Shown here piece by piece: positions 1 through 26,994 of a DNA stretch of 64,000 bases (positions within the stretch are counted from its first letter, which is position 1; each line of letters starts with the position of its first letter). This DNA is from Streptomyces sp. CA-278952 (GTDB taxonomy: Bacteria > Actinomycetota > Actinomycetes > Streptomycetales > Streptomycetaceae), in NCBI RefSeq assembly GCF_028747205.1, contig NZ_CP112880.1, positions 7,227,501-7,291,500 on the forward strand, in the 5' to 3' direction. Below the pieces are notes generated by a model. It was not told where the DNA came from. It searched no databases and was given only the letters and a program-made list of their open reading frames with translations. The position numbers were made by a program, and so were the translations under genes.

Positions 1-507
1 GGGGTCGGTGCTCTGGCCGAGCAGTTCGCGCTGCCAGAGGGTGTAGTCGGCGTAGTGGACCGGCAGCGGTGCCAGGTCCGGGGCACGACCGTCCACACGG
101 GCGGTGTAGGCGGCCATCAGGTCGCGGGCCAGGGGGGTCAGCGACCAGCCGTCGCCCGCGATGTGGTGCAGCAGGATCAGTAGCACGTGTTCGTCGGGGG
201 AGGTGCTGAACAGGGTCGCGCGTACGGGGATGTCGGTGTCCAGTGCGAAGGCGTGGCGGGCCGCTGCGGCGAGTGCGTCCTGGAGGTCCGCCGCGTCGGG
301 GCGCATGGTCTGCCAGTTGAGGCGTATGTGTCCGGCGGGCAGGACCAGCTGTTCGGGCCGGCCGCCTTCGGTGTCGCGGAAGACGGTGCGCAGGGCTTCG
401 TGACGCGCCAGCAGATCGTCCAGTGCCCCGCGCAACGCGGCCTCGTCGAGTTCGCCCGTCAGGCGCAGCGCCAACGGCATGTTGTACGTCGCCGACGGAC
501 CCTCCAG
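1..507. repeat. C-domain repeat, partial module 4 copy at window edge
   Basis: The visible N-terminal part of the fourth condensation domain matches 6352-6858 of the module 2 domain closely. It also shares the shorter stretch downstream of 3142 with the module 3 copy. The repeat probably continues outside the window. Confidence 0.85.
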
Positions 508-3500
508 CTCGTACAGGAACCACAGCCGCTGCTGCGCGAACGACAACGGCAGCACCTCGGGCCGCTCGCCCGCCGTCAGCCGCTTCCTGGCCTGTCCGTC
601 CGCGTCCATGTGCAGCGCGAGCCCGGCGGGCGTCGGGGCGTCGAAGACGGCGCGCACCGGGATCTCCACGCCCAGGCGGTCCCGGACCCTGCTCACCAGT
701 CGCATCACCAGCAGCGAGTGGCCGCCGAGGGTGAAGAAGTCGTCGTCGGCGCCGACCGTATCGAGCCCCAGTACGTCGGCGAAGGCCGCGCACAGCGAGC
801 TCTCGTGCTCGGTGCGCGGCTCCCGTCCGCCGACCCGGGCGGAGAAGTCGGGCGCGGGCAGCGCACGACGGTCCAGCTTGCCGTTGGTGGTCAGCGGCAG
901 CTGCGGCAAGGTGACGAAGGCCGCCGGAATCATGTAGGCGGGCAGCGAGGTGCCGAGGTACGCACGGATCTCCTCCGCGCCGGGGGGCGTCGAGAAGTCC
1001 GCCGAGGGCACCAGATAGGCGGCCAGCTGATCCTGGCGGGCCACGACCACCGCTGTGCCGATGGACGGGTGACGGGTCAACGCAGCTTCGATCTCGCCGA
1101 GTTCGATCCGGATCCCGCGGATCTTGACCTGGTCGTCCGACCGGCCGAGGAACTCCAGCATCCCGTCCCCGGTCCAGCGGGCGAGGTCCCCGGTGCGGTA
1201 CATCCGGGATCCCGCGGGACCGTGCGGGTCGGCGATGAACCGCTCGGCCGTCAGCCCGGAACGGTTCAGGTAGCCGAGAGCCAGCTGGGTGCCGGCCAGA
1301 TAGAGCTCTCCGGTGCCACCCGGCGGGACCGGGCGCAGCGTCGCGTCGAGCACATAGGTGCGAGTGTTCCAGACCGGGCGGCCGATCGGCACCACCCCGC
1401 TGTCCGCGCGACAGTGCCAGGCGGTGACGTCGATCGAGGCTTCGGTGGGGCCGTAGAGGTTGTGCAGTTCGGCACCGACAGTCGACTCGGCTCCGACGGT
1501 TGACCGGAAGCGCTCCGCCAGAGCGGCGGACAGCGCCTCGCCGCTGCAGATCACCCGGCGCAGCGTGGTGCACCGCGCGGAGGCGGGTTCGGCGAGGAAG
1601 ACGTCCAGCATCGACGGAACGAAGTGCGCGGTGGTGATCCGTCGCGTCCTGATCAGCTCGGCGAGATAGGCCGGGTCCTTGTGCCCCTGGGGCGCGGCCA
1701 TGACCAGCGCCGCACCGGTGATCAACGGCCAGAAGAACTCCCACACCGACACGTCGAAGCTCGACGGGGTCTTCTGCAGGACCCGGTCGTCGGGCGCGAG
1801 TCGGTAGGCGTCCTGCATCCACAGCAGCCGGTTCACGACCCCGCGGTGCGGGACCACGACACCCTTCGCCGTGCCCGTGGAACCCGAGGTGTAGATCACG
1901 TACGCGGGAAGCTCGGGCGAGAGCGCCACGGACGGCCCGTGCGTACCGTCCGAGGTGGCCGCGCCGGTCAGGGCGGCGAGGGCGTTGCGATCGTCGAGTA
2001 CGAGCTCGGGCCTGGCGTCGGCACGCATGAAGGCGAGCCGCTCTGCCGGATAGTCCAGATCCAGCGGGAGGTACGCCGCACCGGCCTTGTGCACGGCCAG
2101 CAGCGCCACGACCAGCTCCACCGAACGCGGCAGCGCCACGCCGACGGTGCCACCGGGCCGTACGCCCCTCTCGATCAACTGGTGGGCCAGCAGGTTGCTG
2201 CGGGCGTCGAGCTGCGCATACGTCAGCTCCGTGGCCTCGTGGACCAGCGCGAGGGCGTCCGGGGTGCGTGCGACCTGCGCCGCAAACAGCTCCGGCAGGG
2301 TGGTGTCGGGCACCTCGTGCGAGGTGTCGTTCCACGCCGTGAGCACCTGGTGGTACTCGTGTGTGGTGAGGATGTCGGGGTGGGTGATGGGTTGGTGGGG
2401 TTGGGTGGTGAGGGTGGTGAGGTAGTTGGTCCAGCGGGTGGTGAGTGTGGTGATGGTGTGCGGGTGGTAGAGGTCGGTGGCGAACTCGGCGAAGCCTTCG
2501 ATGCCTGCGGGTTGTCCGTGTGTGTCGTGTTGTTCGGTGAGGCTGAGGGTGAGGTCGACCCGGGAGACTCCGGAGTGCAGGGCTTCGGGGCGGACGTGGA
2601 GTCCGGGGAGGTCGAAGTGGGGTTGTTCGTTGTTCTGGAGGGTGAGCATCACCTGGAAGAGGGGGTGGTGGGCGGTTGAGCGCTGCGGGTTGAGCTCCTC
2701 CACCAGGTGCTCGAAGGGGACGTCCTGGTGGGCGTACGCGCCGAGGCTCGACTCCCTCACCCGGCCCACGAGTTCGGTGAAGATCGGGTCGCCTGTGGTG
2801 TTGGTGCGTAGGACGAGGGTGTTGATGAAGACGCCTATGAGGTGGTCGAGTGCTTCGTCGGTGCGTCCGGCGATGGGGCTGCCGATCGGCACGTCGGTCC
2901 CTGCGCCGAGGCGGGTGAGGAGTGCGGCGAGGGAGGCTTGGAGCACCATGTAGATCGTGGCGTCGCATGCGCGTGCTACCTGTGTGATCCGTGTATGCAA
3001 TTCGGCGCTGATGTGGAAGGGCTGTGCGTCGCCGGCGTAGGTGGCCACGGCGGGTCGGGGGTGGTCGGTCGGGACGGTCACCAGTTCCGGGAGGTCGGCG
3101 AGCTGTTCGCGCCAGTACGCCACCTGCCGGCTCAGCGTGCTGTCGGGGTCGGTGCTCTGGCCGAGCAGTTCGCGTTGCCAGAGGGTGTAGTCGGCGTAGT
3201 GGACCGGCAGCGGTGCCAGGTCCGGGGTGCGGTCCTGCGCGCGGGCGGTGTAGGCGGCCATCAGGTCGCGGGCCAGGGGGGTCAGCGACCAGCCGTCGCC
3301 CGCGATGTGGTGCAGCAGGATCAGCAGCACGTGTTCGTCGGGGGAGGTGCTGAACAGGGTCGCCCGTATGGGCAGTTCGGCGGCCAGGTCGAAGGCGTAC
3401 CGTGCTGCCCTCTCCAGCGCGCCGGTCAGCTCGGTCACCGTGGTGTCGGTGGCCGTGAACGTCACCCGGGCTTCGTCCGGGGCGAGGACGGCCTGGCGGG

Positions 3501-26100: not shown

Positions 26101-26994
26101 GTCGTTGTTCAGGGCACTGCCCCGTATGACGCAGTACACCCGGTCGCCGTCCGCCAGGGCCCGCGAGAGCGGCTTGAGCACGACGATCGCCCCGCCCTCG
26201 CCGCGCACGTATCCGTTCGCTCGCGCGTCGAAGGTGTGGCACCGGCCGTCGGGAGAGAGAGCGCCGAGCCCGGCCATGCCGTAGGCGGACTCGGGTACGA
26301 GGTTGAGGTGCACGCCACCGGCCAGGGCCAGCGTCGACTCGCCACTGCGCAGGCTCCCGCAGGCCATGTGGACGGTGGCCAGCGACGAGGCCTGGCCCGC
26401 GTCGACGGTCAGGCTCGGCCCGCTCAGCCCGAGCAGGTAGGAGAGGCGATTGGCGATGATGCCCCGCTGGGTTCCCGCGACCGCGTGCGGAGTCCGCGCC
26501 GCCAGGCCCGAACGGTCCAGCAGCAGGGAGTAGTCGTGGGAGGCGGCCCCGATGAACACTCCGGTCCTGCCCTCGTGCCACTCCCCGGACACGATCCCGG
26601 AGTCCTCCAGCGCCTCCCAGCCCAGCTCCAGGGCGAGCCGTTGCTGGGGGTCCATCGCGGCGGCCTCTCGCGGGGAGATACCGAAGAACTCCGCGTCGAA
26701 TTGCTCGACGCCGGCCAGGAATCCGCCGAGCCGCGCACTGTGGAGCTGCTGCCGGGTCCAGCCGCCGGGCACCTCCGGGGAATCGGCCTCCGGGTAACCG
26801 CGCGAAGCGGGAACCTCACAGATCGCGTTCCCGCCCCGGGACAACAGGTGCCACAGCTCCCCGGGGTCGGCGGCCTGCGGCAGTCGACACGACATTCCGA
26901 CCACCGCGATGGGGATGTCCGGGGTCACGAGGCGGTCAGGAGTCGCATCAGAGTCCTGTGGGCGCGATCCGGTCACACCGTGCAGTTCACTCAT
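17170..26994 (-). CDS. Type I modular PKS, loading module plus extension module 1
   Basis: A 3274-aa polyketide synthase that begins acyl-chain assembly. Approximate residues: KSQ 28-455 with Gln replacing the active-site Cys (VDAGQASSL near 196), AT with GHSQGE (661) and YASH (768) pointing to methylmalonyl-CoA, ACP (GFDSL near 1050); then KS (DTACSSSL near 1281), AT with GHSIGE (1744) and HAFH (malonyl-type), DH (His near 2056, [10 protein letters not shown] later), ER (HAAAGGVG near 2661), KR (from 2836, Asp-containing TDD segment of the B type) and ACP (GFDSL near 3155). The C-terminus is an acidic docking tail that fits the N-terminal coiled coil of the next protein. KSQ plus methylmalonyl AT predicts a propionyl starter; the second module adds a fully reduced two-carbon unit. 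The ATG has an AAGGGA ribosome site 6-7 bases upstream. First gene of the main biosynthetic operon, divergent from lspA. Confidence 0.95.
17951..18494. repeat. KR-coding repeat, copy in the first PKS
   Basis: Partner of the 12314-12857 copy, in direct orientation 5637 bases away. It encodes the KR of extension module 1. Both copies therefore carry the same B-type stereochemical residues and should set the same hydroxyl configuration. Confidence 0.9.
22078..23657. repeat. KS-coding repeat, copy in the first PKS
   Basis: Partner of the 15484-17051 repeat, encoding the ketosynthase of extension module 1. The two KS domains are almost the same protein except for the patch corresponding to 23211-23282 and the Ala/Pro-rich linker near 22310-22370. 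Confidence 0.88.

Follow-up and report, generated by a model that had tools for sequence, protein, structure and literature searches.

The 64,000-nucleotide stretch of the Streptomyces sp. CA-278952 genome analysed here (the window; bases 7227501-7291500 of a single contig of 8,211,675 bp) carries genes for the assembly of globomycin. Globomycin acts by blocking lipoprotein signal peptidase, which is a drug target in Gram-negative bacteria. Within its assembly line, the nonribosomal peptide synthetase (NRPS) modules of the protein GlobH are expected to add allo-threonine (allo-Thr) at module 7. We find that the adenylation (A) domain of this module, A7, is degenerate, and that three small proteins encoded nearby, GlobC, GlobD and GlobE, are candidates for supplying the residue from outside. 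The cluster itself is already known, in print, from the very strain sequenced here, and the report describing it (Oves-Costales et al. 2023, PMC9943842) leaves open both the origin of L-allo-Thr and its route into module 7. New beyond the text of that report is the degenerate A7 and, with it, the probable separate supply of allo-Thr. The published globomycin cluster combined with a trans supply of allo-Thr to module 7 is the overall explanation that fits best, and it is one we hold with considerable confidence.

GlobH is encoded on the minus strand (window coordinates -6590..17154, of which 1..17154 lie in the window) and was delineated from its open reading frame, Pfam matches and specificity codes. 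It comprises 7914 amino acids, with the first 5718 codons inside the window, and consists of a KS-AT-DH-KR-ACP polyketide synthase (PKS) module followed by modules 4-8 and a thioesterase. Modules 4, 5 and 6 lie in the window; to its left are most of the condensation (C) domain of module 7, A7, the thiolation (T) domain that follows it, module 8 and the thioesterase. Five of the seven core positions tested in A7 have been lost: the Ser and Lys of the phosphate loop, Asp235, the Glu of YGPTE and the catalytic Lys. In the alignment, the phosphate loop of A7 reads YAAGADGRLAR, as opposed to YTSGSTGxPKG or a near form in the other GlobH A domains, and Gly replaces Asp235. Relative to A4, about 20 residues have been lost in frame, taking with them the PTE of YGPTE and code positions 330 and 331, and DGTLD stands in place of the NGKLD or SGKLD found elsewhere, substituting Thr for the catalytic Lys. 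The Asp of YRTGD and Arg428 are retained. A7 scores 301 bits against the A-domain profile, compared with 732-839 for the other four GlobH A domains and about 430-630 for most full-length A domains of other genomes; since the GlobH and GlobE domains were the source of the A and C profiles, their own scores are inflated. From these losses we infer that module 7 would be unable to activate its own amino acid. Sequencing error is an unlikely source of the decay, because the frame is open over all 7914 codons and the changes consist of scattered substitutions and that in-frame loss. The main text of PMC9943842 does not state that A7 is a dead domain, nor do the examined parts of the paper on strain VB1 (PMC11479970). 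By the count in those same parts, the orthologous gene has four A domains and Thr has a separate A gene, so that the published record already implies an unusable A7.

The same core positions were scored in other A domains. Among 32 complete A-domain hits in nine other NRPS stretches of this genome, 28 had lost no core position, three had lost one, and one had lost three, this last being a 168-bit hit in a separate minus-strand frame that was taken for a stand-alone ligase. At the loci that carry GlobC, GlobD and GlobE or their counterparts (the trio), 52 of 56 complete hits had no loss, one had a single loss, two had four and one had five. Both sets include the NRPS to the left of globH. Scoring of the catalytic Lys was confined to hits reaching profile position 500, with methyltransferase-interrupted domains exempt; the control domain c737k, which ends at 489 and in which no A10 motif was found, was not scored for it. 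The control numbers are small, and the argument that A7 is dead is drawn from its own residues.

No close parent of A7 emerged among the A domains fetched, the best full-length identity being 43%, in the neighbouring NRPS. Among 150 relatives, only the CA-278952 genome itself matched as a second copy of the degenerate domain was sought, and a search at E 1e-100 returned none of 391 Streptomyces genomes (own genome not included), which adds little. One genome, G013, was next best by its thioesterase (48%) and was rejected as a source of an A7 relative, its NRPS having another layout and six intact A3 motifs. Streptomyces sp. DvalAA-43 has a related globomycin-type cluster (L007, 2-8948) in which GlobE and GlobD are encoded on the strand opposite to GlobH and face its end. 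Its sequence aligns with GlobH residues 434-5614 at 77% identity and residues 7024-7905 at 83%, and the best DvalAA-43 matches to A7 are only 37-41% identical.

The candidates for a supply in trans are encoded on the minus strand. GlobE (28324..31356), assigned from profiles and codes, is a stand-alone A-T protein with the Thr-type code DFWSVGMVHK, extended at its N-terminus by about 390 residues that have no Pfam match. The sequence-only reading had proposed a separate Thr module; the Thr-type code does reside in this stand-alone protein, while the allo-Thr position of GlobH itself holds a degenerate A domain that the same reading had not foreseen. GlobC (32239..32976; PF00975) is a type II thioesterase with the motif GHSLG, and thus combines a thioesterase fold and a GHSxG-type motif with a gene placed near that of an A-T protein, as in proteins of the LgnA/WS20 kind. 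Between them lies globD (31407..32231), encoding a short-chain dehydrogenase (SDR). In the proposed sequence of events, GlobE would activate L-Thr and keep it on its own T domain. GlobD, as an SDR with buried NAD, would oxidise the beta-hydroxyl of the GlobE-bound Thr and re-reduce it from the other face, yielding L-allo-Thr, with its cofactor staying bound through both half-reactions. GlobC would then move the residue from GlobE onto the module 7 T domain, and GlobH would add in turn N-methyl-leucine, allo-Ile or Val, Ser, allo-Thr and Gly before its thioesterase closes the ring. The order of biosynthetic steps is the proposal of PMC9943842 and agrees with the sequence. GlobE probably loads allo-Thr in trans with GlobC as the shuttle, and the loss of A7 core residues makes trans loading of module 7 very likely.

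Oves-Costales et al. (PMC9943842) had already proposed that GlobD carries out an oxidation and a reduction on GlobE; the idea of a buried cofactor is an addition of this analysis. The best NCBIfam model for GlobD is TIGR03971, the mycofactocin-coupled SDRs, at 285.9 bits, and within its own genome GlobD stands at 286 bits on this model with the next of the 62 matches at 191. All 24 aligned GlobD relatives match TIGR03971 at E < 1e-20, as well as many general SDR models. Five of the six best matches among solved structures are named carveol dehydrogenase (3oec, 3t7c, 5ej2, 3uve and 3pgx). GlobD carries an insertion after the second beta strand that aligns without gaps to 3oec and adds about 11-12 columns relative to five plain SDRs of the genome, these being five of eight control SDRs (L070, L071 and L075 were left out). 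According to the part of Haft et al. (PMC5264612) consulted, an insertion near the NAD site buries NAD in the TIGR03971 family. Co-occurrence with mycofactocin genes was not found in CA-278952, where the best match to the maturase MftC reaches 39.5 bits against a cut-off of 265, and MftC exceeds the cut-off in one of 21 trio genomes (G183). The search is able to find the maturase, as 16 of 60 control genomes of the class pass. Among the papers listed by a literature search, titles and the openings of abstracts showed no link between mycofactocin, threonine and a nonribosomal epimer, which is weak evidence of absence. The family assignment, the carveol dehydrogenase matches, the insertion and the sub-threshold MftC together point to a mycofactocin-free nicotinoprotein. 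That GlobD is a self-contained redox epimerase of the Thr beta carbon, of the buried-cofactor type, is a tentative reading to which we give close to an even chance.

Relatives of GlobD (E <= 1e-60) are present in 71 of 392 Streptomyces genomes, CA-278952 included, at 78 places, and CA-278952 has no second one at this threshold. We surveyed 22 of the 77 places outside the CA-278952 genome, in 21 genomes, these being the first 27 entries of the list with five skipped. A match of the type II thioesterase kind adjoins the SDR in all 22 fetched loci, and a stand-alone A-T protein does so in 20 (in G309 the locus is cut by a contig end, and G088 has none). The A-T code is DFW[NS][VI]GMVHK, Thr-type, in 20 of 20, and likewise in GlobE and its DvalAA-43 counterpart. 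Two short contigs (G309 and G167) leave 20 informative loci, 19 of which have a C-T step that lacks a live A domain. In these 19 the A domain is absent in 12, is reduced in two (G094 and G304) to a remnant about 110-130 residues long in which Thr replaces the A10 Lys, and is degenerate at the C-T step in two (G183 and G180). The remaining three have a final C-T-thioesterase, settled by Pfam in G368 and assigned in G173 and G086 by the same layout as G368, not by Pfam. G211 and G304 each hold one further full-length degenerate A domain. At the 12 plain C-T loci, no HHxxxDG was found in the C domain by pattern in seven, and the C match is weak (67-88 bits) in four others. These arrangements suggest, with nearly even confidence, that the trio is a portable unit for the supply of allo-Thr, with GlobD as a nicotinoprotein independent of mycofactocin and a recipient A domain that decays from dead to remnant to gone.

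Some loci have features of their own. In G088 (L057/L058), GlobD and a thioesterase-like match are adjacent and no A-T protein or NRPS was found within about 20 kb, which may indicate a non-peptide use or a relic. A recurring type combines the trio with a C-T-C protein (L021/L022, L033/L034, L041/L042, L045/L046, L053/L054 and L055/L056, in G178, G287, G203, G212, G066 and G115, respectively), and the two of these scanned with Pfam, G178 and G212, also have luciferase-like monooxygenase and class III aminotransferase domains. At L004 (569-2533, minus strand) an NRPS frame of 655 amino acids ends inside an A domain (profile positions 2-125), and is either a broken gene or a piece continuing elsewhere.

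Oves-Costales et al. (PMC9943842) list two routes into module 7, and the degenerate A7 favours the trans route over activation of free L-allo-Thr by A7. The latter, their second option, would have GlobC free L-allo-Thr from GlobE and module 7 load itself. It gains from the full-length frame of A7, which has no stop, and from the retained YRTGD Asp and Arg428, and it would demand catalysis by a domain without phosphate-loop Ser and Lys, Asp235, YGPTE Glu or catalytic Lys and with two code positions deleted; we judge it improbable. Alternatively, L-allo-Thr might be drawn from general metabolism, L-allo-threonine aldolases being in existence, and the trio might serve another purpose. In 20 of the 22 fetched loci of GlobD relatives the SDR has a Thr-coded A-T protein directly next to it, and in WS9326A biosynthesis, according to the part of PMC7539972 consulted, the matching Thr-loading A-T gene is required for that residue and for the peptide, which leaves a metabolic origin very improbable.

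Several observations count against the explanation preferred here, namely trans supply through a GlobD with buried cofactor. In PMC9943842, by the legend of Fig. 3, an asterisk denotes a proposed inactive domain, and A7 may be so marked. The DvalAA-43 stretch orthologous to module 7 was found on no contig, and therefore neither a selection test nor a second view of the decay is to be had, leaving a single view of module 7. A C-T step without an A domain is also present near 2.698 Mb of the CA-278952 genome (nine NRPS stretches, inspected by eye) with no GlobD there, so that this feature alone is no proof of the trio. GlobD, for its part, falls short of the curated TIGR03971 cut-off of 300 bits, the score for membership, and is matched by many ordinary SDR models as well. 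Both facts would suit an ordinary dehydrogenase that exchanges NAD(P)H with the cellular pool and epimerises or reduces a keto intermediate, and PMC9943842 describes GlobD as an NAD(P)H-dependent oxidoreductase. Against such an enzyme, GlobD leads the second-ranked SDR of the genome by 95 bits on TIGR03971 and carries the NAD-burying insertion of that family; we regard the ordinary dehydrogenase as a credible alternative, at somewhat less than even confidence. Epimerisation by a GlobD with captive cofactor is a concrete chemical mechanism that lends itself to testing with three small proteins. If true, it would answer where the L-allo-threonine of these bacterial peptides comes from, and the trio could put allo-Thr into other peptides.

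The identity of the assembly line is secure. It is the published globomycin cluster of CA-278952, whose role in production was demonstrated by knockout and heterologous expression (PMC9943842), because oligonucleotides, insert ends, domain order, specificity codes, the Gly module and the thioesterase all agree. All 19 published oligonucleotides tested match the region exactly, one of them, TET0047, twice. The Cas9 sites delimiting the cloned insert fall at window positions -12561 and 38599, about 51.2 kb apart (about 51.1 kb in PMC9943842). The knockout spacer lies on a Trp codon at 8362-8364, residue 2931 counted from the ATG at 17154 and 2935 in PMC9943842, a four-residue difference that is unexplained. 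The sequence-only reading had recognised a globomycin-type order and called for comparison with a characterised cluster, and the two clusters prove to be the same.

Its reading of the NRPS also held. Code extraction gave, in order, DALLIGAVC(K), DALWFGGTFK, DVWHISLIDK, the degenerate domain and DILQLGLIWK, the first three just as proposed. The embedded methyltransferase claimed for the first NRPS module (C-A) was found as a weak Pfam match (30.4 bits, cut-off 30.0); because this methyltransferase interrupts the A domain, scripted extraction gives E as the tenth letter of the first code, and in the alignment the tenth-position Lys follows the methyltransferase. The NRPS part is C-A-T five times with no additional condensation-like (epimerase) domain, as had been noted, and the Gly-type module (DILQLGLIWK) and terminal thioesterase (GWSFG) expected to the left of the window are both there. 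The amino acids attached to these pocket codes are presumed ones, apart from those predicted in print by antiSMASH. The printed predictions for the GlobH A domains are Val, Val, Ser, undetermined and Gly (PMC9943842).

The acyl chain begins on GlobG (17170..26994, minus strand), in which Pfam finds two KS, two AT, two carrier domains, one DH, one ER-type domain and one KR. These form a KSQ-AT-ACP loading module, with the AT motif YASH, and a reducing KS-AT-DH-ER-KR-ACP module, with HAFH. The N-terminal PKS module of GlobH again has YASH (Pfam and motifs). A 2-methyl-3-hydroxyacyl product of GlobG and the first part of GlobH, which had been predicted, is supported by these domains. The 3-hydroxy-2-methylnonanoyl chain of globomycin is matched in its 2-methyl-3-hydroxy pattern and not in its length: read strictly, propionyl, a C2 unit and methylmalonyl give 3-hydroxy-2-methylheptanoyl, with a seven-carbon main chain, and only two extension modules follow the loading module, so that the nonanoyl of globomycin would need one extra extension. 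Chain length is named as an open question in PMC9943842, whose authors also hold that the module 3 DH must be inactive or skipped; its motif differs from that of the module 2 DH, which fits their view.

Other genes surround the assembly line. GlobF (27418..28149, plus strand; PF01252, 115 bits) is a lipoprotein signal peptidase, LspA, whose true start within the open reading frame is unsettled. A SnoaL-like protein (46228..46581, plus strand; PF12680) and a class IV aminotransferase (46609..47658, plus strand; PF01063) are likely products of the allo-Ile genes, and we take them to be of the DsaE and DsaD types, respectively. The published position of the allo-Ile genes is about 20 kb upstream of globG (PMC9943842). 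Close to them is a BacA-type gene (bacitracin resistance, undecaprenyl pyrophosphate phosphatase; 48002-48976, minus strand). Asparagine synthase and ABC transporter genes (38387-42729, plus strand) probably belong to the siamycin lasso-peptide cluster, which adjoins globomycin in the parts of PMC11479970 examined. Left of the window, an NRPS of 4291 amino acids (-24896 to -12021, plus strand) probably represents the published supercluster's arylomycin portion, a label taken from the same parts of that paper.

The locus can be compared with several known systems. It shares strain, oligonucleotide sites, insert ends and GlobC-GlobH order with the cluster of PMC9943842, and differs in that the text there calls all NRPS modules canonical, whereas in the sequence the A domain of module 7 is degenerate. 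The VB1 arylomycin-globomycin-siamycin supercluster comes from a near-identical strain (99.95% ANIb, a measure of average nucleotide identity), and in the parts of PMC11479970 examined the loader of the allo-Thr module is not stated. That paper also names Streptomyces sp. CB02056 as a carrier of globomycin genes. Like the TIGR03971 SDRs, as described in the part of PMC5264612 consulted, GlobD has this family as its best model, the NAD-site insertion and the family's structures as its best solved matches; unlike them, it scores below the cut-off and belongs to a genome without a mycofactocin maturase above cut-off. The relevant parts of PMC7539972 and PMC8748450 describe, for WS9326A and legonindolizidine, a Thr-loading A-T protein that stands alone, together with a type II thioesterase passing Thr to a module without an A domain, LgnA taking Thr from such a protein and handing it to a separate T domain (PMC8748450); in contrast, the receiving module of globomycin still has a full-length degenerate A domain. 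Comparable cases are albicidin, ramoplanin and enduracidin, in which, according to the part of PMC8949500 consulted, an inactive main-line A domain is served by a stand-alone A-T protein, just as the globomycin cluster has a main-line A domain without core motifs and an A-T protein of the expected specificity. The ramoplanin and enduracidin A-T proteins carry an N-terminal extension, as GlobE does, whereas albicidin differs in its substrate, an Asn-derived cyano-Ala (PMC8949500).

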